Of a DNA stretch of 64,000 nt, positions 16,167 to 63,877 are shown one piece after another. This DNA is from an uncultured Bacteroidia bacterium (lineage in GTDB: Bacteria > Bacteroidota > Bacteroidia > Bacteroidales > UBA932): the NCBI GenBank assembly GCA_902784435.1, contig CACZUR010000020.1, positions 38,329-102,328 of the forward strand, given 5' to 3'. The notes under the pieces are model-generated. The model made no database searches, had not been told where the DNA came from, and saw only the letters and a program-made list of their open reading frames with translations. The position numbers and the translations under genes are program-made. How positions within the stretch are numbered: position 1 is the stretch's first letter; each line of letters starts with the position of its first letter.

Positions 16167-17824
16167 TTATTGTTATAGGGATCCCAGACAATGCCATCCT
16201 GCTCTTGGAACATCACTTTCTGGAAAGTGTATTCCTTCAGGTCTTTTGCCTTAAGCTGGTGCGCCCACTTTACGCGGGGGCCCTGCGCTCCGGGACCGGT
16301 ATTGCCGTATTCGGCATAATAGGAATTCTTCTTGGTATCGGGCTTACCCTCCTTCTCCCAGTCGTGCCAGCCTTCGGGGAGGATGTGCTTTCCCAGTTCG
16401 CAGCCGATGAACACCGTCTTGGCATAGGCGCCCCAGGGGCGGCCCAGGTAGCACTTGTCGATTCCCTCGTCGGCCGTCAACTTGCAGTTCACAAAGACAT
16501 AGCCGTACTTCTGCCCCTGCAGGGTGCTGGCGGCCGTCACATAGCTGTTTTTCTTGCTGTGGATGGTACAGCCCTCGAAATAGGCGATGCTGGTGCCGAA
16601 GATAAAGTCCGTAGTACCCTCTATGTAGCAGTCTTTGAAATAGTTGCGCTTAATGCCCCCGAACTTGCCATAGCGGCCGTAAGTATAGAGGGTATCCTGG
16701 TTGCCGATAAAGCGGCAGCGGTTGAAAAAGAGGAAATCCCCGTCCGTGAACACGGCCACGGCCTGGCCGATCTCCTTGCCTTCGCCGGAAGTATTCTCGA
16801 AGGTGATGTCCTCGAAGGTGATGTAGCTGGCGTGGATGTAGATGGAAGCGCTGCCGGAAGTGCCCATGGGGAAATCCCGGCCGGGCCACATCTTCTTGGC
16901 ATACTTGTCAAAGGTAAAGATGGTTTCCGCTGCGCACTCCCCTTTGAAATGCACGCGGAACTTGGTGTGGGGGATGCTGATTCCCTCCTTGTAAACGCCT
17001 TTTCGCACCAGTACGTCGGTAATTTCCTGGTGGCTGTAGTCCGGAATGGCATTCACGGCCTCCTGTACGGTCATATAGTCCCCGTGGCCGTCGGCCGACA
17101 CCACAATATGATAATACTGCAGGTGCTGCGCGAGTTCCGGAAGCTGCTGCTTCACCAGGCCGCACACCATTTCCGTCACCTTGCGGGCGCCGGCGGGCAC
17201 CAGATGGGTGTTGTCGTCCTTGCCGGTGGAAATCATGAAATAGGCCTTGGAGGCCTCGTCGCCCAGACCCTCGATCCAGTCCAGGGTGGGGGTGGTCATA
17301 TCCAGCAGGGTAACGTTCTTTTCCGCCGCCACGGCCTTCATGGCTGCAGGATAGTCCGTGTGGCAATTGCGGTCCAGTTTCCCCTGCTTGAACCACCTTC
17401 TTGCGATGGGGGTAAGCAGCACGGGCGTACCGCCTTTTTCGCGTACCCCGTCAATGAACGTGCGCAGGTTGTCCTGATAGGCGCCCCAGGGGGCGGCATA
17501 GCGCGCGGGGTCGTCGGCCTTGGCATCGTTGTGACCGAACTGGATGAACACATAGTCGCCGGGCTTCACGGCCTGGTACACCTTGTCCCACAGTCCCAGG
17601 TCTATGAAACTCTTGGTGCTGCGCCCGTTCTGGGCATAATTGATCACCTGCACCTGGGCGGGATCCAGGAAATTCTGGAACATCATGCCCCAGCCCCTTT
17701 CGGCGCCGGCCTTGGGAAGGTCCTTTTCGGCCATGGTGCTGTCCCCCATCAGGTGGACGGTGGTAAAAGAGGACAGGCCCAACCACAGAAGAGCCGCGGC
17801 GGCCGCCACAACGAACTTTTTCAT
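16163..17824 (-). CDS. Two-domain pectin esterase: SGNH acetylesterase (CE12-like) plus pectin methylesterase (CE8)
   Basis: Removes acetyl and methyl esters so that lyases and polygalacturonase can act. The 553-residue protein has a signal peptide and then an SGNH domain (about 20-240): HLMGDSTMAEKD (block I, nucleophile Ser), NYAQNGRSTKSF, FIQFGHNDAK (block III) and DNTHLVPAGA (block V, Asp/His). The C-terminal CE8 domain (about 245-545) has GDYMTVQEAVNAIPDY, QAVAVFTDGDFLFFNRCRFI with GNQDTLYT, YIEGTTDFIFGTSIAYFEGC (catalytic Asp) and YLGRPWGAYAKTVFIGCELG. CE12-CE8 fusions are known from Bacteroidota pectin loci. It overlaps GH28 upstream and GH105 downstream by ATGA junctions. Confidence 0.94.
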   Translation of the reverse strand: MKKFVVAAAAALLWLGLSSFTTVHLMGDSTMAEKDLPKAGAERGWGMMFQNFLDPAQVQVINYAQNGRSTKSFIDLGLWDKVYQAVKPGDYVFIQFGHNDAKADDPARYAAPWGAYQDNLRTFIDGVREKGGTPVLLTPIARRWFKQGKLDRNCHTDYPAAMKAVAAEKNVTLLDMTTPTLDWIEGLGDEASKAYFMISTGKDDNTHLVPAGARKVTEMVCGLVKQQLPELAQHLQYYHIVVSADGHGDYMTVQEAVNAIPDYSHQEITDVLVRKGVYKEGISIPHTKFRVHFKGECAAETIFTFDKYAKKMWPGRDFPMGTSGSASIYIHASYITFEDITFENTSGEGKEIGQAVAVFTDGDFLFFNRCRFIGNQDTLYTYGRYGKFGGIKRNYFKDCYIEGTTDFIFGTSIAYFEGCTIHSKKNSYVTAASTLQGQKYGYVFVNCKLTADEGIDKCYLGRPWGAYAKTVFIGCELGKHILPEGWHDWEKEGKPDTKKNSYYAEYGNTGPGAQGPRVKWAHQLKAKDLKEYTFQKVMFQEQDGIVWDPYNNK

Positions 17825-19368
17825 AAGGTTTCTCCGTTAACGGTTACATGGTCGAACACCACCTCGCCGGCATTGTGCACCTCCACGCCCTTGCGGGCCG
17901 TAAATACGCTGTTGTGGAAGTCCAGGCCGGTTACCGGAAGCTCAGGCAGGCCATTGATGTAAATGGCCTGCTTGGCACCGGAACACACAATATGATCGAA
18001 ATGGATGTCTCTGAATTCAGGGGTGGTCTCGTCCACCGGCGGCAGGTTGACCGAAGACTCCTGGGCCGAAGATGCCCCCGCGGTCGCTGATAAGAAGGCC
18101 GATGCTCCCTTGGGGGCATCTTTGGCCCCTTTCTCCGGAGCTTTCTCCGTAGCGGAGACGCCGGCATAGTAGAGGTTGAAGGTGACGGCTTCGGCCACGA
18201 TGTCTTTCATATAGATGTCCTTGCACCAGATGTCCTTTACCAGGCCGCCGCGGCCGCGGGTGCTCTTGAAGCGCAGGCCCACGTCGGTGCCCAGGAACCG
18301 GCAGCCTTCCACCAGGATGTTCTCTACGCCGCCGCTCATCTCGGAGCCCACCACAAAGCCGCCGTGGCCGTGATACACCACGCAGTCTTTGATGATGAGG
18401 TTGCGGCATTTGCGGGCGTGCCGGCGGCCGTCAGCGTCTTTTCCGCTCTTGATGCAGATGGCGTCGTCGCCCACGTCGAAGCTGGCGCCCACCACGACGA
18501 CATTCTCACAAGCCTCGATGTCGATGCCGTCGCCGTTGGTGGAATAGTGCGGGTTGCGCACGACGACATCTCTGATAATCACGTTCTTGCACCATAACGG
18601 ATGCAGGTTCCATGCGGGCGAATCCTGGAAGGTGACCCCTTCCAGCAGTACGTTTTCGCACTCCCGGAGGGAGACCAGCACGGGACGCAGGAACGTCTTG
18701 ATTTCGGCCTCATCCAAGGCCGGGTCCGGGAAATTGAGCGAGCCGGCGGTCAGGCGGGCCTTCTTGTAGCCCTCGTCGGGGTACCAGACGCTGCCGTCAT
18801 CGGCCAGCACACCGCCTTTGGCCAGCTGTTTCCAGGTATCGTCCCCCACCTTGCGGCGCTTGAGCTCCCTCCAGGGATGACCCCCGCCGTCGATGGTGCC
18901 CTTGCCGGTGATGGCAATGTCAGTAGCGCCCTCGGCATGGATGGGAGAAAGGCAGCGGCGCACGTCCATTCCCTCGAAATTGGTGTCGATGATGGGGTAC
19001 AGGTCCTGGTCGGACGAGAATACGATGACGGCGTTGTCGCTCAGGTGCAGTTCCGTGTGGCTCTGCAGGGCAATAGGCCCGGTAAGCCAGATGCCGTCCG
19101 GCACCACAAGCTTTCCGCCGCCGTACTTCTGCAGGGCCTGGAATGCCTTTTCAAAAGCTTCCGTACAGAGGGTTACGCCGTCGCCCACCGCACCGAAATC
19201 CGACAGGGTTACGGTATAGGCGGGAATAGAGGGTTCCGCCACAACGGGCATGTCGAAGGGAAGATCCTTGTATAGGTTTTGCAAACGTTTGTCTTCCTCC
19301 TGGCAGGAAAACGCGAAGAATAGCGTTAACGCTATGAAAATCAGGCGATTGCGCAAAAGTATGTTCAT
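17821..19368 (-). CDS. Polygalacturonase-type glycoside hydrolase family 28, with in-frame palindromic insertion
   Basis: Hydrolyses galacturonan or oligogalacturonides. I place the start at 19366-19368 because it gives MNILLRNRLIFIALTLFFAF followed by SCQEE, a lipoprotein signal, and sits 21 nt from a TACCTTTG -7 box; an upstream in-frame ATG at 19422 would place the promoter inside the gene. Beta-helix motifs of GH28: SPAWNLHPLWCKNV, NPHYSTNGDGIDIEACENV (catalytic Asp), VGDDAICIKSGKD (catalytic Asp pair), GHGGFVVGSEMSGGV and LRFKSTRGRGG. About 40 residues after YYAGVSATEK (EKGAKDAPKGASAFLSATAG...) are low-complexity and encoded by a palindrome at 18063-18128. First gene of the leftward operon; its 5' coding region contains a LacI-type operator (19282-19291). 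Confidence 0.93.
   Translation of the reverse strand: MNILLRNRLIFIALTLFFAFSCQEEDKRLQNLYKDLPFDMPVVAEPSIPAYTVTLSDFGAVGDGVTLCTEAFEKAFQALQKYGGGKLVVPDGIWLTGPIALQSHTELHLSDNAVIVFSSDQDLYPIIDTNFEGMDVRRCLSPIHAEGATDIAITGKGTIDGGGHPWRELKRRKVGDDTWKQLAKGGVLADDGSVWYPDEGYKKARLTAGSLNFPDPALDEAEIKTFLRPVLVSLRECENVLLEGVTFQDSPAWNLHPLWCKNVIIRDVVVRNPHYSTNGDGIDIEACENVVVVGASFDVGDDAICIKSGKDADGRRHARKCRNLIIKDCVVYHGHGGFVVGSEMSGGVENILVEGCRFLGTDVGLRFKSTRGRGGLVKDIWCKDIYMKDIVAEAVTFNLYYAGVSATEKAPEKGAKDAPKGASAFLSATAGASSAQESSVNLPPVDETTPEFRDIHFDHIVCSGAKQAIYINGLPELPVTGLDFHNSVFTARKGVEVHNAGEVVFDHVTVNGETL
18063..18128. repeat. Conserved-loop palindromic element inside the GH28 gene
   Basis: Arms 18063-18079 (GGGCCGAAGATGCCCCC) and 18112-18128 (GGGGGCATCTTTGGCCC) are complementary except one pair. 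The 32-nt loop holds the core AAGAAGGCCGATGC shared with elements at 47599-47666, 55931-55994 and 63454-63516. Here the core is on the strand opposite to the gene, and the frame stays open. Confidence 0.88.
19282..19291. promoter_or_regulatory. LacI-type operator inside the GH28 5' coding region
   Basis: Perfect palindrome CAAACGTTTG, identical in core to the sites at 19410 and 19492. It lies about 80 bp inside the GH28 gene and could act as an auxiliary operator for looping. Confidence 0.65.
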
Positions 19369-19389
19369 TCGTTTCAGTGCTAGCAACAG

Positions 19390-19397
19390 CAAAGGTA
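19390..19397 (-). promoter_or_regulatory. -7 box of the pectin operon promoter
   Basis: TACCTTTG on the minus strand, matching the Bacteroidota -7 consensus TAnnTTTG, 21 nt before the GH28 start. The operator at 19410-19419 lies in the spacer upstream of it, a position suited to repression. Confidence 0.65.
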
Positions 19398-19409
19398 AGC
19401 AAAATAATC

Positions 19410-19419
19410 CAAACGTTTG
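19410..19419. promoter_or_regulatory. LacI-type operator over the pectin operon promoter
   Basis: Perfect palindrome CAAACGTTTG, 12 bp upstream of the operon -7 box. Same core as the operator at the lacI-like gene promoter. Confidence 0.75.
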
Positions 19420-19489
19420 CATTTTTTTCGAAAAACTTGCAGTTTTCCTTCATTTTTCAAGAAAACCTGCAAAGTTTTTTGGAGTTTTG

Positions 19490-35825: not shown

Positions 35826-35882
35826 GGTCCAGGCGAGCGGGGAAGGTGGTCAGGAGGGTTGGGGAAGGTGGCTGCCCCAAAT

Positions 35883-35992
35883 GGGGAAGGTCTCATTTTT
35901 CAAGGGGGACCTTCCCCACCGAAATGCCATTTCAGCTATTTCTGTGGCCGATTCCATGGGGAAGGTCCCGGCCATAAAAAGAGACCTTCCCC
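35883..35992. repeat. 110-bp nested palindrome, REPIN-like, copy A
   Basis: Outer arms GGGGAAGGTCTC ... GAGACCTTCCCC and inner arms GGGACCTTCCCC ... GGGGAAGGTCCC, so four GGGGAAGGTC boxes alternate in orientation. It differs from copy B (37822-37931) at only nine positions by my alignment. The two copies bracket the RAYT-like gene in direct orientation. Confidence 0.9.
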
Positions 35993-36217
35993 AAACAGCC
36001 CCAGGACCTTCCCCAAATGTCCCAACCACCTTCCCCATTCCGCCCAGGACCTTCCCACACTTCCGGAACCCAACTTCCCGCCCGGAACTGCCCGGAACTG
36101 CCCGGAACCCAACTTCCCGCCCGTAAGCCCGTAACTACCCAAGCCCAACTTCCCGCTCCTATCTTTCCGCTCGCTCAACCGCTAATCATTTAACCCATCA
36201 TTAAACCATCACATACC

Positions 36218-37755: not shown

Positions 37756-37821
37756 GGGGAAGGTCACCGAGCGGAATGGGGAAGGTCACCGAGCGGAATG
37801 GGGAAGGTCACCGGGAGAAAT
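37756..37821. repeat. 22-bp tandem array, three units
   Basis: GGGGAAGGTCACCGAGCGGA starts at 37756, 37778 and 37800; the third unit is diverged. The array runs straight into palindrome copy B and shares its GGGGAAGGTC box. Confidence 0.88.
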
Positions 37822-37931
37822 GGGGAAGGTCTCTTTTTTCGAGGGGGACCTTCCCCGCCGAAATGCCATTCCAGCCATCTCTATGGCCGATTCCTTGGGG
37901 AAGGTCCCAGCCATAAAAAGAGACCTTCCCC
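37822..37931. repeat. 110-bp nested palindrome, REPIN-like, copy B
   Basis: Same structure as copy A (35883-35992): outer GGGGAAGGTCTCTTTTT / AAAAAGAGACCTTCCCC arms and inner GGGACCTTCCCC / GGGGAAGGTCCC arms around a loop with GCCAT/ATGGC. Confidence 0.9.
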
Positions 37932-38267
37932 AAACACCTTGACCACCTTCCCCAAACGTCCCAGGGCCGTTCCCAGACCGTCCCAGACCTTCCGACCCAC
38001 CTTCCCCAAACGTCCCAGGCCGTCCCAGACCTCCCGCCCCCCCCCGTCCCCCCGTCCCCCCGTCCCCCCGTCCGCAGACCTCCGGAGGACGTCCCAGACC
38101 TCCGGCCCCCGTCCCAAACTTCCCGACCACCGGCCCCCAATAGCCCAAAGAGTGTCCTCAACGCCCGTCACGATCCGCCACGAAACCCGGAGCCGTCCCC
38201 AAGAAGGGGTTTTCCGCACAAAGATTTGGAAAAGTCGCAGGGAACGGCGAAATTTGTGAAAGAAACC

Positions 38268-46132: not shown

Positions 46133-46981
46133 ATGAAAAAATGGATTCTGACGATATGCGCCCTCTTCGCAGGCATCGGCCTGCTGGCCCAGGGCAATGT
46201 GACCACGCGGAAGTACCGCCTGGCCGATTTCACCGATAAAATCACCCAAGTCGTCCTTACCGGCAACGAAGTCCTTTCCAGCGCCCTCCGGCAGGAGGTG
46301 GTGAGCGGCTGGACGGCATCGGCCTTTGAATTCTGCACCCTGGAGCAGTTCGAGAAGCTCAAGACTTCGGACAATTTTTACTTCCTCATCGCGGCCGAAA
46401 CGCGTTTCAAGGATGAGGACAACCCCGGCATCACGTTTCTCACGCTGGTCAAGGGCGGTCCGGAAGCCACGGAAGGTATCGGCGCCATGCACGAAGTCAT
46501 CTCCCTCCCGCTGCAGGCCGCGATGGGCGGCGACGGCCGGGAACTCACCTATCTGGGCAGTCTGGTCAGCGCCGTCCAGACGTTCACCCTGGCAGCCATG
46601 GAATCGGAAAAAGTAGCCTATTCGCGCGACGCCTGGTTCCGGCAGAACTACGAAAAGTGGGGTAAGATGAAGCAGATTTACATGGCCCGCGAAGACATCG
46701 TGGAAAGCATGCAGGAGCAGGAAATCGAGAAGTTCCTGGACCCGGACTGGCATGTCTGCTCAGCGGAAGAGTCGGACCGCCAGTATCTGGACGGGGCCTA
46801 CCATGTGCTCACCAGCTATGTAGTGGCCCCCGTCATCCCCAGCAAGGGCTCCTATTGCTACAAAATGCTCTTCGAGGCCGATACGCACGCGCTTTTCTAC
46901 ATTTCCCGCCACAAGATTACGGAGAAAAAGGGCGTGGGCTTCCTGCCCGAAGACCTGAAATACCTGGCCCGGAAGCGATGA
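46133..46981 (+). CDS. Exported protein of unknown function
   Basis: 282 residues with signal peptide MKKWILTICALFAGIGLLAQ. The mature part has mixed strands and helices and no domain I recognise. Notable stretches: FYFLIAAETRFKDEDNPGIT, EVISLPLQAAMGGDGREL and YLDGAYHVLTSYVVAPVIPS. It looks like a family of conserved Bacteroidota envelope proteins. It overlaps the M16 peptidase start as ATGA, so a coupled function in envelope protein turnover is conceivable. Confidence 0.75.
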   Translation: MKKWILTICALFAGIGLLAQGNVTTRKYRLADFTDKITQVVLTGNEVLSSALRQEVVSGWTASAFEFCTLEQFEKLKTSDNFYFLIAAETRFKDEDNPGITFLTLVKGGPEATEGIGAMHEVISLPLQAAMGGDGRELTYLGSLVSAVQTFTLAAMESEKVAYSRDAWFRQNYEKWGKMKQIYMAREDIVESMQEQEIEKFLDPDWHVCSAEESDRQYLDGAYHVLTSYVVAPVIPSKGSYCYKMLFEADTHALFYISRHKITEKKGVGFLPEDLKYLARKR

Positions 46982-48234
46982 GAAGCGGCGTATTCCCCAG
47001 CGGCCTCCGCTATGCCCTGAAACGCAGCGGCCGGGCGGTGGCGTTCTGTTCCCTGACCATCGGCGCAGGTACGCGCGACGAAGCCGGCTACCCTGCCGGC
47101 ATTGCGCATTTCGTGGAGCACACGCTGTTCCGCGGCACGGCCCGCAAGAGCGCGGCAGTCATCGGCAGTTACCTGGACAAACTGGGCGGAGAGCTCAACG
47201 CATACACCACCAAGGAAGAGATTGTCCTGCACGCCACCGTGCTCAAGGAGGACCTTCCCAAGGCCGTAAAACTGCTCTTCGAACTGGCCACGGAGGCCAC
47301 TTTTCCGGAAAACGAGATCGAGACGGAGCGCGGCGTGGTCCTGGACGAAATCATTTCTTACAAGGACAACCCCGCCGAGGACGTGTATGACCGCTTCGAG
47401 AGCCTGCTTTTCGACGGCTCGCCCCTGGCAACGCCCATCTTGGGCACCACGGCCAGCGTCAAACGGATTTCCCCGGAAATGCTCCGCCGCTTTGTGGCCG
47501 AAAAGTTCGTCCCCGGGAACATGGTCCTTTCCATCGTGGCCGATGTAGACGAGGCCCTGCTGGAAAAACGAGTACGGAAATGGGCCGATGCCCTCGAGGC
47601 AGCAGGGCATGTCCCCTTCGTCGCAAATAAGAAGGCCGATGCTCCTCAGGGGACATGCCCTGCTGCTGAGACTTCGGTGCCTGTTTTCAATAAGGTGGTG
47701 GACAAGCGGCACCACGAGGCGAATGCCGTCATCGGGTGCCGGGCGCCGTCGCTGTATGAAATGCCGGAGCGGCTGGTGTGCGCCATGCTGGCCAACATCC
47801 TGGGCGGTCCGGCGTCCAATTCCCTGCTGAACAAAGAGCTGCGGGAGAAGCGGGGCTGGGTGTACGGTATCGAGTGTTCCTATACGCAGTATGCCGACAC
47901 AGGTATTCTGGCCATCACTTTCGGCTGTGACAAGACCAACCTGGAGCAGTGTTTGGGGGCTATCGGCAAGATTCTCCAGCGCTTGAAGGAAACGCCGCTT
48001 TCGGGCAGCCAGTTCAAGGCCTATCGGAAGCAGCTCCTGGGGCAGCTGGCCATCAGTTCAGAGGCCGGGGAGGCGCAGTGCCTGTCCATGGGGAAGAGCA
48101 TGCTCTCCTGGGGCCGCATCATGACCCCCGACGAAACCCGCGCCGCCATTGCCGCCATCACCCCCGCCGACCTGCAGGCCATGGCCGCCCGCCTCTTTGC
48201 GCCGGACAGTCTTTCCTCGCTGGTGTATCTTTGA
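46978..48234 (+). CDS. M16-family zinc peptidase with in-frame palindromic insertion
   Basis: Insulinase-like peptidase, 418 residues from the ATG at 46978, which overlaps the upstream stop as ATGA. The active site is GIAHFVEHTLFRGTARKSAA (HxxEH zinc ligands with distal Glu in ETERGVVLDEI). The family's FVPGNMVLSIVADVDEALLE precedes the inactive-like second half with KELREKRGWVYGIECSYTQY. Between WADALEAA and VPVFNKVVDKRHHEA lies GHVPFVANKKADAPQGTCPA, encoded by a palindrome (47599-47666) and unexpected for the family, where a short linker joins the halves. No signal peptide, so probably cytoplasmic. Confidence 0.92.
   Translation: MRSGVFPSGLRYALKRSGRAVAFCSLTIGAGTRDEAGYPAGIAHFVEHTLFRGTARKSAAVIGSYLDKLGGELNAYTTKEEIVLHATVLKEDLPKAVKLLFELATEATFPENEIETERGVVLDEIISYKDNPAEDVYDRFESLLFDGSPLATPILGTTASVKRISPEMLRRFVAEKFVPGNMVLSIVADVDEALLEKRVRKWADALEAAGHVPFVANKKADAPQGTCPAAETSVPVFNKVVDKRHHEANAVIGCRAPSLYEMPERLVCAMLANILGGPASNSLLNKELREKRGWVYGIECSYTQYADTGILAITFGCDKTNLEQCLGAIGKILQRLKETPLSGSQFKAYRKQLLGQLAISSEAGEAQCLSMGKSMLSWGRIMTPDETRAAIAAITPADLQAMAARLFAPDSLSSLVYL
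47599..47666. repeat. Conserved-loop palindromic element inside the M16 peptidase gene
   Basis: Perfect 18-bp arms GCAGCAGGGCATGTCCCC (47599-47616) and its complement (47649-47666) around a 32-nt loop with core AAGAAGGCCGATGC. Loop is nearly identical to that in metG (55947-55978). In frame as HVPFVANKKADAPQGT. Confidence 0.92.
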
Positions 48235-52305: not shown

Positions 52306-54264
52306 ATGATTCCGAAAGAGACCGTAGACCTGATACTGGACACCGCCCGCATCGAAGAGGTGATCGGGGATTTCGTGACGCTCAAGCGCCGCGGCTCCAG
52401 CTATGTAGCCTGCTGTCCCTTCCACAACGAGAAAACCCCCTCTTTCCATGTAACGCCCTCCCGGGGCATCTACAAGTGCTTCGGCTGCGGAAAAGCCGGC
52501 AGCGCCGTGGGCTTCGTGATGGAATACGAGCACATGACCTACCCGGAGGCGCTGCGCTACCTGGCCAGGAAATACAACATCGACGTCCAGGAAGAGGAAG
52601 AGACGGCAGAGCAGATTGCCGCCCGCCAGCGCACGGAAAGTCTCATGGCCGTGAGCGAATTCGCCCGCAAATTCTTCTGCGACCAGCTGCAGGAGCCCGA
52701 AGGCCATGCCGTAGGATACCGGTACTACCGCAACCGGCACATTGAAGACGCCACCATCGGCCAGTGGAGCCTGGGATGGGCGCCCTCCGGCCGCAGCACC
52801 CTGGTGGATGCCGCCCGCGCCGCCGGTTACAAAGAAGAATACCTGGTAGACGCCGGACTGGCCATCCGCCAGGACAACGGTACGCTGGTAGACAAGTTCC
52901 GCGAGCGCGTGATGTTCCCCATCCACTCGGTGAGCGGACGCGTCATCGCCTTCAGCGGCCGCACCCTCAAGGCCGATAATCCCGCCAAATATGTGAATTC
53001 CCCGGAAACGGAGATTTACATCAAGAGCCGCAACCTCCTGGGCATTTACTTCGCCAAAAGCGAAATGGCCAAGCAGGACCGCTGCATCCTGGTGGAAGGC
53101 AATGTAGACGTGGTGATGATGCACCAGATGGGCGTCACCAATGTGGTGGCCTCCTGCGGCACCGCCCTCACGGAAGAGCAGATCCGCCTGATCAAACGCT
53201 TCACGGAGAACGTCACCATCATGTACGACGGGGACTCCGCAGGACTGCATGCCGCCATCCGCGCCATCGGCCTCATCCTCAAGGAAGGGATGAACGCCCG
53301 CGTAGTTTTCCTCCCGGACGGGGACGACCCCGACTCCTTCGCCCAAAAACACACCCTGGAGGAAATCCGGGAATTCATCGCAGAGCATGAGCAGGACGGC
53401 ATTGCCTTCAAGACAGACCTGCTGCTGAAAGAGGCCGGCGAAGACCCTGTCCGGAAGGCCGGCATGATCAATGAGATTGCCGATACGGTGGCCGATATCC
53501 CGGACCCCATCAAACGCCAGGTCTATGTGGACACCGTGGCGCGCCGTTTCGACATCGATGCCGACATCATCCAGGAGCGCGTACGCAAAACCCGCGAAAA
53601 AAACCGGGCCGATGCTTCCAAGCGGAAAGAAAATGTTCCCGCACAGGACCGCAAGGCCGACACCCCCCAGCCTTCCGTGGAGACCCCCGCCCCGCGCCGG
53701 GTGCTGGAAGAGGAACGCATCCTGGAGCCGTCGGAGCGGGAACTGCTGGGCTTTATCCTGCGCTTCGGCCGCCATGTCCTGCAATTCGAGTCGGACTCAG
53801 AGTTTTATGACGAGCAGATGCCGCAGACGGTGGCGGAGTTCATCGACGCAGCCCTGGCGGCCGACGACTGCCACTTTGCCAACGCCGCCTACGAAGCCAC
53901 CTACCAGGCCTATTTCGGCTGGTACGACCAGGGGCTGGAACAGGATGCCATCGTCCGGAACCTCCTGAATGGCGAAGACCGCAGCATTGCCGGCGTGACG
54001 GCAGACCTGTCCACCGAGAAATACGAGCTCACCGTGCACAACTTCTCGGACGCCCTCACCACCACGGATTCCTGGCTGGTCACCTATGTGCCCCGCGCCA
54101 TCCTGGCCTACCACGACAAACGCATCACGGCCCAGCAGACGGCCATTTACCGGAAACTGCAGGCCGGGACATCGGCCAAGGACACCCTGGAACTGATGGG
54201 CAGCCTGAATGCCCTGAACGAAATCAAAAAGAATATCAATATCAAATTAGGGAGACTGAAATGA
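52306..54264 (+). CDS. dnaG: DNA primase
   Basis: Makes RNA primers for replication. 652 residues: N-terminal zinc-binding domain [20 protein letters not shown] with [12 protein letters not shown], the catalytic core with [20 protein letters not shown] and the TOPRIM motif [20 protein letters not shown], then a basic, Pro-rich linker (about 420-455) and a helical C-terminal helicase-binding domain. Its stop overlaps the metG start by 4 bp. Confidence 0.97.
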
Positions 54265-56540
54265 GTTATAAGAGAACCCTCGTGACCTGCGCGCTGCCTT
54301 ACGCCAACGGTCCTGTCCATATCGGCCATCTGGCCGGCGCCTACATTCCCGGAGACATTTACGTGCGTTACCTGCGCATGCGGGGAGAAGACGTGGTCTT
54401 TGTATGCGGCTCCGACGAGCACGGCGTGCCCATTACCATCAAGGCGCGCAATGAGGGCGTTTCCCCCCAGGATATCGTAGACCGCTACCACAAGGTGATG
54501 AAGGACGCTTTCACGGGCCTGGGCATCAACTTCGACATCTATTCCCGGACTTCGTCGGCCATCCACGAGAAGAATGCCGCCGCGTTCTTCCGGAAACTCT
54601 ACGACCAGGAGGATTTCATTACCCAGGAAAGCGAGCAGCTGTACGACGAGGAAGCCAAGATGTTCCTCACGGACCGCCTGATAGAAGGTACCTGCCCCAA
54701 GTGCGGAAATCCGCACGCCTACGGGGACCAGTGCGAAAAGTGTGGCAGCACACTGTCGCCGGAAGAACTGCTGGACCCCAAGTCCAAGCTGTCCGGTTCT
54801 ACGCCCGTGAAGAAGAAAACCAAGCACTGGTACCTGCCGCTGGACAAGTACGAACCCTGGCTGCGGGACTGGATCCTGGAGCAGCACAAGGAGTGGAAGA
54901 CCAATGTGTACGGCCAGTGCAAGAGCTGGCTGGACGGCGGCCTGCAGCCCCGCGCCGTCACCCGCGACCTGGACTGGGGTGTGCCCGTTCCGGTAGAGGG
55001 CGCCGAGGGCAAGGTGCTGTACGTGTGGTTCGACGCTCCCATCGGCTATATTTCCAACACCCAGGAGCTGCTGCCGCAGAGCTGGGAGAAATGGTGGAAA
55101 GACCCCGAGACCCGGCTGGTGCATTTCATCGGCAAGGACAACATCGTGTTCCACTGCATCGTGTTCCCGTCCATGCTCAAGGCCGACGGAGAATACATCC
55201 TGCCGGACAATGTGCCCTCCAACGAATTCCTGAACCTGGAAGGCGACAAGATTTCCACCTCCCGCGGCTGGGCCGTGTGGGTGAATGAATACGAGCGGGA
55301 CTTCCCCGGCTGCGAGGACGTGCTGCGCTATGTGCTTACGGCCAACGCCCCGGAAACCAAGGACAACGACTTCACCTGGAAAGACTTCCAGAGCCGCAAC
55401 AACGCGGAACTGCTGGCGGTTTTCGGCAATTTCGTCAACCGCGCCGTCGTGCTCACGCACAAGTATTTCGGCGGCCGCGTGCCGGCCAACCTGAAACCGG
55501 AGTCCATCGACCGGGAAACCCTGGAGGCCATCCGCCCCTGCCGCCAGGCCCTGGAAAAGTACATCGAGACCTACCACTTCCGCGAGGCCCTGAAGGAAGC
55601 CATGAACATGGCGCGTATCGGCAACAAGTACATCTCCGACATGGAGCCCTGGAAGGTGGCCAAGGCCGACATGGACCGCACCGCCAGCATCCTGTACACC
55701 TGCCTGCAGATCTGTGCAGACCTGGCCATCGCCTTCGAACCTTTCACCCCGTTCAGCGCCCAGAAGCTGCGCAACATCCTGCGTGTAGGCGTAAACGCCG
55801 GCTGGGACCACCGCGCCGGCGAAGGCACTCCCACCGTGAATTTCTTCCGTCCCGACGAAGGCCTGGCCGTGCATACGCGCCCGTATGCCCCCGGGAATGC
55901 CCTGGAAGGCAATGCCCCCGGGAACGCCCTGGAAGGCAATGCCCCCTTCGTCGCAAATGAGAAGGCCGATGCTCCTCAGGGGGCATCCCCTTCCGGCGCT
56001 TCGGCCATCGTGCTGGATTGGGAGATGCTGGGCGCGGCCGAGCTGCTGCCTGCAGGGCATGAACTGGGCGAGGCCGTGCTGCTGTTCCGCAAGATAGAGG
56101 ACGCCGAGGTCGATGCCCAGATTGCCCGTCTGGAGGCCATCAAGAAGGCCCGTCAGGAGGCCGAAGCCGCCCGCGCCGCCGCAGAGGCCCGTGGCAAAGT
56201 GGAGCCGCAGAAGCCGGAGGTCACCTTCGACCAGTTCGGTGCCATGGACATCCGCACCGCCACCGTGCTGGCCGCAGAGCGCGTTCCCAAAACCGACAAA
56301 CTGCTCAAACTCACCATCGACACAGGCATTGACCAGCGTACCATCGTGTCCGGCATCGCAGAGTACTATAGCCCGGAAGACATGGTGGGCAAACAGATCT
56401 GCATCCTGGCCAACCTGGCCCCGCGCGTAATCCGCGGCATCGAATCCAAAGGCATGATTCTCATGGCCAAGCAGGGCGATGGCTCCATGCGCTTTGTCAC
56501 GCCCCAGGAAGCCGTCGTGAACGGTGCCCAAATCGGCTAA
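54261..56540 (+). CDS. metG: Methionyl-tRNA synthetase with in-frame palindromic and tandem insertion
   Basis: Class I synthetase, 759 residues. HIGH motif in [19 protein letters not shown], zinc knuckle [23 protein letters not shown] equivalent in [20 protein letters not shown], anticodon-binding helices, and a C-terminal dimerising tRNA-binding domain (about 650-759; [20 protein letters not shown]). Between [15 protein letters not shown] and [18 protein letters not shown] lie about 45 residues: two copies of PGNALEGNA from a 27-bp tandem repeat, then [20 protein letters not shown] from a conserved-loop palindrome. This lies in the linker before the helical end of the anticodon domain, so the catalytic core is spared. 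Confidence 0.96.
55887..55940. repeat. 27-bp tandem repeat inside metG
   Basis: Units starting GCCCCCGGGAAYGCCCTGGA at 55887 and 55914, identical but for one base; nine codons each (PGNALEGNA). It runs into the palindromic element that follows. Confidence 0.88.
55931..55994. repeat. Conserved-loop palindromic element inside metG
   Basis: Arms GGAAGGCAATGCCCCC (55931-55946) and GGGGGCATCCCCTTCC (55979-55994), complementary with two mismatches, around a 32-nt loop that matches the M16 copy at 31 of 32 bases by eye. In-frame and the same orientation as the gene. Confidence 0.92.
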
Positions 56541-63268: not shown

Positions 63269-63877
63269 TTACCTCCACGCGTTAAAGTGCCACAGCACCA
63301 CGCCGATGCTCACCGAAACGTTCAGGGAGTGTTTGGTGCCTTTCTGGGGAATCTCCAGGGCAAAATCGCAGGCGTCTACCACTTCCTGCTGCACGCCGGC
63401 CACTTCGTTTCCGAAGACCAGCGCGTATTTCGTGGCCACAGGCCTGCCGCCCTCCGGAAGGGAGGCCTCCAGCGGACAAGAAGAAGGCCGATGCCCGCCG
63501 GAGGCCTCTCTTCCGGCGGCGCAGAATGCGTCCAGCTTCACGGAGTGGACGGTCTGCTCCACGGCAATGACGGTGTAGCCGCCGGCCCGAAGTTCGCGAA
63601 CCAGGGCAACCACATCGTCCACGTGCTGGAAGGGAACGGATTCCTCTGCTCCCAGGGCCACCTTGTGCAGCTCCGGGGAGGGGGGCACGGGGCAGATGCC
63701 GCCCAGGTATACTTTGTCTACCCCGAAGGCGTCGGCGGTGCGGAAAGCGCTGCCCACATTGTGGGCGCTGCGGATGTTGTCCAGCACCAGCACCAGGCCG
63801 CTCAGGGGCCTTTCCTGCCGATACTGTTCCGGGGTGAGCCTGCCCAGCTCGATGTTGAGTAGTTTTCTGTCTTTCAC
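63269..63877 (-). CDS. TrmH/SpoU-type RNA 2'-O-methyltransferase with in-frame palindromic insertion
   Basis: SAM-dependent ribose methylation of tRNA or rRNA, knotted SPOUT fold. 202 residues from a GTG at 63875-63877, which follows the -7 box TACCTTTG by 4 nt. Motifs: LVLVLDNIRSAHNVGSAFRT (motif 1), YALVFGNEVAGVQQEVVDAC (motif 2) and LEIPQKGTKHSLNVSVSIGV (motif 3). Between HSVKLDAF and YALVFGNEV lies a 27-residue stretch (CAAGREASGGHRPSSCPLEA...) encoded by a palindrome (63454-63516). Related proteins have a short turn there. It does not cut motifs 1-3. Target RNA unknown. Confidence 0.92.
   Translation of the reverse strand: MKDRKLLNIELGRLTPEQYRQERPLSGLVLVLDNIRSAHNVGSAFRTADAFGVDKVYLGGICPVPPSPELHKVALGAEESVPFQHVDDVVALVRELRAGGYTVIAVEQTVHSVKLDAFCAAGREASGGHRPSSCPLEASLPEGGRPVATKYALVFGNEVAGVQQEVVDACDFALEIPQKGTKHSLNVSVSIGVVLWHFNAWR
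63454..63516. repeat. Conserved-loop palindromic element inside the trmH-like gene
   Basis: CCGGAAGGGAGGCCTCC (63454-63470) pairs with GGAGGCCTCTCTTCCGG (63500-63516) bar one position. The loop contains the core AAGAAGGCCGATGC but is 29 nt, not 32. Core lies on the strand opposite to the gene. Confidence 0.85.

Follow-up and report, generated by a model that had tools for sequence, protein, structure and literature searches.

The window, a 64,000-nucleotide stretch of a contig from an uncultured member of the Bacteroidales, contains four short palindromic elements, each within a predicted protein-coding gene. The copy at 47599-47666 (all elements are given on the forward strand, with the loops left by maximal stems) lies in a gene of the M16 peptidase family (46855-48234, forward strand; PF00675 and PF05193), carries the loop core in the sense of the gene, and has perfect 19-bp arms around a 30-nt loop. 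The copy at 18063-18128 has its core opposite to its host gene, which belongs to glycoside hydrolase family 28 (GH28; 17821-19422, reverse strand; PF00295), and consists of 17-bp arms with one mismatch and a 32-nt loop. In metG (methionine--tRNA ligase by family searches; 54261-56540, forward strand), the copy at 55931-55994 has the core in gene sense, 17-bp arms and a 30-nt loop, and an exact 16-nt direct duplicate of its 5' arm is found just upstream (55904-55919, forward strand). The fourth copy, at 63454-63516, has 22-nt arms with mismatches and a 19-nt loop, and its core runs opposite to a gene for a SpoU-family methyltransferase (63269-63877, reverse strand; PF00588), which is referred to below as trmH, a name that falls below the NCBIfam cut-off. 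An earlier note, made from the sequence alone, had described these four elements, and all of them are present. They are also the only strong matches in the window to an unfiltered covariance model of the family (74.5, 69.0, 62.3 and 40.3 bits); the next-best match is the reverse strand of one of the four (19.4 bits), and nothing else exceeds 20 bits. Of the 57 sequences with at least seven pairs, 56 were used for the model, including the GH28 and M16 copies and not the metG and trmH copies, and one background-like match at the polA locus was left out. Single-stranded DNA folds of the four elements with a few flanking bases gave z values from -2.4 to -6.6 against shuffles on both strands, and no Rfam family reached its gathering score anywhere in the window (0 matches). 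A second, intergenic palindromic repeat family with several copies, TGGGGAAGGTC...GACCTTCCCCA, was also seen (35882-36038 and 37821-37955 in the window, and 1712-1837 of locus L052); the L052 copy has perfect 45-bp arms.

The anatomy of the element was derived from an alignment of 146 copies, each kept if at least 8 of 12 pairs form. The fraction of copies that pair is 0.86-0.98 at pairs 1-8 and 0.70-0.88 at pairs 9-17, and drops to about 0.3 at pairs 25-26; this fall-off suggests an element length of about 66-70 bp. Within a 32-nt inner region, columns 7 and 8 pair with columns 26 and 25 in 94% and 97% of the copies, and these two G-C pairs delimit an apical loop of 16 nt, T[AG]AAAAGAAGGCCGAT, which in the M16 copy lies at 47625-47640 of the forward strand (columns 9-24 in the common register). 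The earlier note had given three of the window elements a 32-nt loop; with maximal stems this is so for one of the four (GH28), and the 32-nt inner region found in each belongs to the common register, in which the arms pair at a constant distance from the core and the trmH copy is one base off. Likewise, the loop core that had been described as common to all four occurs in three, the metG core, GAGAAGGCCGATGC, being different by one base. As had been proposed, the loop is more conserved than the stem, and the hairpin is maintained despite stem change: mean entropy is 0.59 bits in the loop core, 1.48 bits at arm positions 1-12 and 1.64 bits at positions 13-20. The motif GGCCGATG is 96-100% conserved per column, third codon positions included, a value to be read with the fact that the core partly defines how copies were found.

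The stems vary from copy to copy, as had been noted, but they are not without order, since a weak consensus exists (CGGAAGGAGATGCCCCT / AGGGGCATCTCCCTCCG are the commonest arm bases in the 146 copies) and the arms strongly covary. In 56 copies kept for at least seven pairs, all 12 pairs show two-sided changes, and 89.0% of the cells pair as compared with 61.4% after shuffling, with a covariation score of 0.787 (0.251 in shuffles and 0.18-0.26 with a slid register); two of the five covariation measures were not above shuffles (both-sides-changed pairs, 12 vs 11.1; pair types, 34 vs 31.6). In copies that passed a threshold of 9 of 12 pairs, agreement is 0.902 between the two arms within one copy and 0.471 between arms of different copies of one genome (0.435 with columns shuffled). 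Wobble mismatches are biased to one strand, 50 vs 6 of 96, and 46 vs 12 of 81 in a second set drawn mostly from other species. In the 146 copies this lean is 67 vs 5 at pairs 1-9 and is gone at pairs 13-16 (35 vs 35); because it is confined to the inner pairs, it is only a hint of a single-stranded form. Structure of the host mRNA was considered as the selected form and rejected, since the lean points the same way whether the copy runs with the gene or against it (11 and 6 copies, the second group being small).

Further copies are numerous in the source genome, which is represented by 2.23 Mb in 42 contigs at 82.6% completeness. A 14-mer core with at most one mismatch occurs 56 times, whereas the reversed control occurs once. 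Among the 54 distinct core matches with enough flank, 28 pair in the fixed register at 8 or more of 12 arm pairs (24 of them at 11-12), and the remaining 26 have at most 7 of 12; thus, about half of the core matches in this genome are background. The loci examined include 34 copies from the source genome by one selection rule and 31 by a stricter one. Two or partial tandem copies within one gene were seen at several loci (L004/L005, L010, L011, L021, L014 and L037), which suggests local duplication. Outside the source genome, a scan of 84,980 genomes, which may leave out records close to the source, for a 19-mer of the loop found 48 stretches, 32 of them in four Bacteroidales MAGs (G371, G093, G233 and G286, three of which are from a reticulum or labelled as rumen type) and 16 scattered elsewhere. 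Where the flank is sufficient, all 30 in-genus loop matches have at least 6 of 12 pairs and 26 have at least 8, whereas none of the 15 off-genus matches has more than 5. The covariance model matches at least 34 of 400 genus genomes, with at least 8 matches in at least 12 (the source included in both counts), and these are lower bounds, since scoring was limited to 14 candidates per genome and the filters were strict; the family is therefore not limited to one species. In six related genomes with 25-33 14-mer matches each, no core hairpin was found in 30 loci taken from the 177 matches (best score, 8), so that the bare 14-mer count overstates the spread and was replaced by the covariance model. 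No published description of the element was recognised among the top-ranked literature results, most subscription papers being outside their scope.

Judged from the sequence, the element is a palindrome inserted in frame inside protein-coding genes, as the earlier note had held for both orientations. A spanning open frame was found for 34 of 35 checked copies; L019 lies just upstream of the apparent start of a topoisomerase gene, and thus 33 of 35 are intragenic and two are outside genes, a share that speaks for no avoidance of genes rather than for enrichment. Nearly always one frame is used per orientation. All 20 gene-sense copies with at least 8 pairs read K-K-A-D-A, and 9 of 10 such copies against the gene read G-A-S-A-F (the gene strand of L043 is uncertain). 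The consensus has two stop-free frames in gene sense and two in reverse, so stop codons do not impose the use of one frame. A different frame (H-R-P) is read in the trmH copy, as it is in the trmH copies of G330 and G412. Host families supported by searches are GH28, M16, metG, SpoU-family methyltransferase, murE, cysS, fmt and dihydropteroate synthase; the miaA host (IPP transferase) matches just below the NCBIfam cut-off, and the isoleucyl-tRNA ligase and UvrA hosts, which are pieces clipped by locus ends, are below the equivalog cut-off. Further hosts, read from their peptides, are presumably polA, dnaX, rsmF, kdtA and rfbD. In a DHH-type gene of G412 (L240), an in-frame run of about 10 KETE repeats lies beside an element copy.

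All 19 tested sites have at least one orthologue among the relatives examined, and comparison with orthologues lacking the insert indicates that the element is a true insertion. The distance between conserved anchors in trmH is 12 nt in 7 of 10 relatives and 87 nt in the source genome, and in miaA it is 24-27 nt in 8 of 20 relatives and again 87 nt in the source. Because the gaps in these empty relatives are far shorter, the arms and the loop are all extra sequence. The length between anchors varies naturally among relatives, in agreement with the earlier suggestion that the sites are linkers or loops; in the predicted structure of the trmH protein, insert residues about 120-147 are drawn as a loop with pLDDT below 50, in a model whose mean of 59.4 is too weak to rely on. 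Apparent half-copies were noted by eye in fmt of G379, a2m of G371, rsmF of G244 and GH28 of G330. In other species, these sites are occupied in one of three ways: by this core between different stems, by a related loop type GTCGCTTCGCGACCCTGTCCGGGCAAATGCTCC, or by a palindrome GTCAT...ATCTC. The related loop type was seen between similar arms at L132 (G195), L163 (G286), L199 and L180 (G044) and L146 (G019); the GTCAT...ATCTC palindrome, whose stem varies with its partner, occupies the ileS, miaA, metG and cysS linkers of relatives (examples are L139, L159, L164, L084 and L247). Same-site pairs have the same orientation in 119 cases and the opposite one in 36. In fmt, G371 and G093 carry copies that do not differ in the 32-nt inner region and whose stems are altered on both sides, while at another site shared by these two genomes (L313/L317) the stems are 0.96 alike, which counters any universal stem turnover.

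The main result, which the earlier note did not foresee, is that stem identity tracks the genomic site, while loop identity tracks the genome. The main comparison was made on 82 copies that had been reached only via gene sites or the covariance model and that passed two thresholds, 9 of 12 pairs and 13 of 25 core matches. Copies retrieved by loop patterns were excluded, as was locus L336, which had been counted as a genome of its own but probably belongs to G286. Apical-loop identity is 0.830 for pairs within one genome (n = 285), 0.746 for same-site pairs from different species (n = 48), and likewise 0.746 for pairs that share neither. Stem identity is 0.574 at the same site, 0.456 within the same genome and 0.422 for neither. 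With genome labels shuffled, none of 1000 runs reached the loop value and 3 reached the stem value; with sites shuffled within genomes, 579 of 1000 runs reached the loop value and none the stem value. The identity pairs are not independent, and the shuffles preserve copies but not phylogeny. A nine-genome subset agrees; in it, 17 of 1000 shuffles reach the small within-genome stem excess. The full set of 136 copies, which passed the same two thresholds, gives the same result with a search bias, as copies found through loop patterns inflate the within-genome loop likeness in some genomes.

Several explanations were weighed against these observations. That the elements are chance inverted repeats in linkers rich in alanine, aspartate, lysine and proline might be suggested by the half of the source-genome core matches without a hairpin and by the relatives with 25-33 background matches each; it is refuted by the slid-register and shuffle controls and by the presence of at least six pairs in all of the in-genus and none of the off-genus matches, and its probability is practically nil. 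Another explanation is that the stems are templated by the target, namely, that insertion brings in the loop and that one arm arises as a fresh reverse complement of the native flank, by snap-back. Such a process predicts stems that follow the site and loops that follow the genome. It was raised by the clearest filled and empty pair, ileS of G195 against G304 and G199, which involves the related loop type GTCGCTTCGCGACCCTGTCCGGGCAAATGCTCC: the G195 sequence equals that of G304 plus a 38-nt loop and the reverse complement of the preceding 19 nt. However, this pair can be read as a gain or as a loss, and both arms are extra at trmH and miaA. Furthermore, when 40 filled copies were compared with empty orthologues, neither arm stood out as the native one (mean z of 0.48 and 0.54 for the two arms, with z exceeding 2 in just 3 and 4 of the 40 copies). 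Snap-back stems are thus weakened and appear improbable. Copying of arms from elsewhere was also examined, with 31 copies searched against 255,631 bases (overlaps kept; about a tenth of the genome). Six arms have exact matches of at least 14 nt elsewhere, the longest for shuffled arms being 13; judged by context, these are three neighbouring duplicates, one match within a related half-copy, one overlapping locus, and one unexplained 14-mer (L046). This source was rejected.

A chromosomal recognition site, where a DNA- or RNA-binding factor reads the loop in the hairpin and selection maintains the foldback while tuning the loop per species, would account for loops that are alike within genomes and not by site, for base-level conservation of GGCCGATG that extends to third codon positions, and for a hairpin maintained while the arms change. 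Nevertheless, no such factor is known, there are only tens of copies per genome, the copies occur in both gene orientations, and relatives carry half-copies (by eye); we regard this explanation as unlikely, if somewhat less so than snap-back. Less plausible than either is that a Y1 (RAYT-like) transposase moves the element, in the manner of a REP, as single-stranded DNA. Y1_Tnp matches were found in 19 of 19 genomes searched, and the wobble lean at pairs 1-9 (67 vs 5), present in both gene orientations, is what a strand-specific single-stranded form would give. However, Y1 genes are equally present in element-poor genomes, the core hairpin occurs in none of 16 Y1 neighbourhoods from six genomes (other palindromes lie within 500 nt in 14 of the 16), the lean is lost at pairs 13-16, and no conserved stem-foot tag was seen by eye. 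Several Y1 transposase matches per genome were noted (L382-L397), one of which, in G412, is flanked by two identical 18-bp palindromes. Reverse transcription was likewise set aside as a route, since 8 of 10 element-rich draft genomes gave no RVT_1 match.

The reading that we favour, with a probability of roughly 0.55, is that of an in-frame palindromic element resembling the Rickettsia palindromic elements (RPE), mostly inherited at permissive sites, with arms that stay complementary and a loop that is kept uniform. Palindromic elements of about 66-70 bp would have entered genes in frame at positions where extra residues are tolerated; recent transposition was not observed, and past mobility is suggested by the scattered sites. 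At many sites, several species seem to share a copy by inheritance, and deletion seems to have removed some copies. Each copy would form a hairpin of about 17-bp arms, a partly paired collar and the 16-nt apical loop, and template switching while the foldback is replicated may rewrite one arm from the sequence of its partner, whether or not the foldback is also under selection; template switching could also flip the spacer. The likeness of loops within a genome may be maintained because copies exchange loops or because a trans-acting factor reads them. Selection at the peptide level alone is disfavoured for the loop, because third codon positions are near-invariant. Against the favoured reading, the copies at the same site could be independent insertions, and the uniformity of loops could result from recent amplification within each genome. 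A related alternative, to which we give a lower though appreciable chance, is that conversion or movement involves the loop by itself, as a cassette of about 16-30 nt swapped among resident hairpins throughout the genome, while the arms descend with the site.

The nearest precedent is the RPE, as the earlier note had supposed; the support is for an element of that kind and comes from published descriptions. In the accounts cited, RPE are palindromic insertions translated in frame within genes for conserved proteins (PMC2229807; PMC10969869), and the present element, set beside them by description only, shares the in-frame palindrome within coding genes. RPE are about 105-150 bp with a conserved peptide per family, whereas the Bacteroidales element is about 68 bp and has separate loop and stem histories. 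REP sequences, including the GTAG and CGTC palindromes, are described as short multicopy hairpins, some of which lie within genes (PMC3733652); according to that description they are mostly intergenic, 20-40 bp long, carry an end tag and often stand beside a RAYT gene. In contrast, only 2 of 35 copies of the Bacteroidales element are outside genes and no Y1 neighbourhood contains it (0 of 16), and no GTAG or CGTC tag was seen at the stem foot (by eye, uncounted). By location and neighbourhood, the element is not a RAYT-linked REP. As for the arms, template switching is reported to homogenise arms and invert spacers in coding inverted repeats of yeast (PMC8604942), and maintenance of stems by template switching has been described (PMC8794818). 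The ten yeast inversions listed have spacers of 2-5 bp, whereas the spacer of the Bacteroidales element is a conserved sequence repeated through the genome.

These elements extend in-frame palindromic insertion, best known from Rickettsia, to a large group of the Bacteroidales, and the affected genes cover translation, cell-wall synthesis and DNA repair. The opposed histories of stem and loop within an element of about 68 bases make it a testable case for arm correction by template switching, for loop exchange or for selection, and the congeners offer, as a natural series, sites that are filled, inverted, half-deleted or empty. If the loop is itself the moving unit, concerted evolution would here act on a very small unit, with DNA foldbacks as its landing places.
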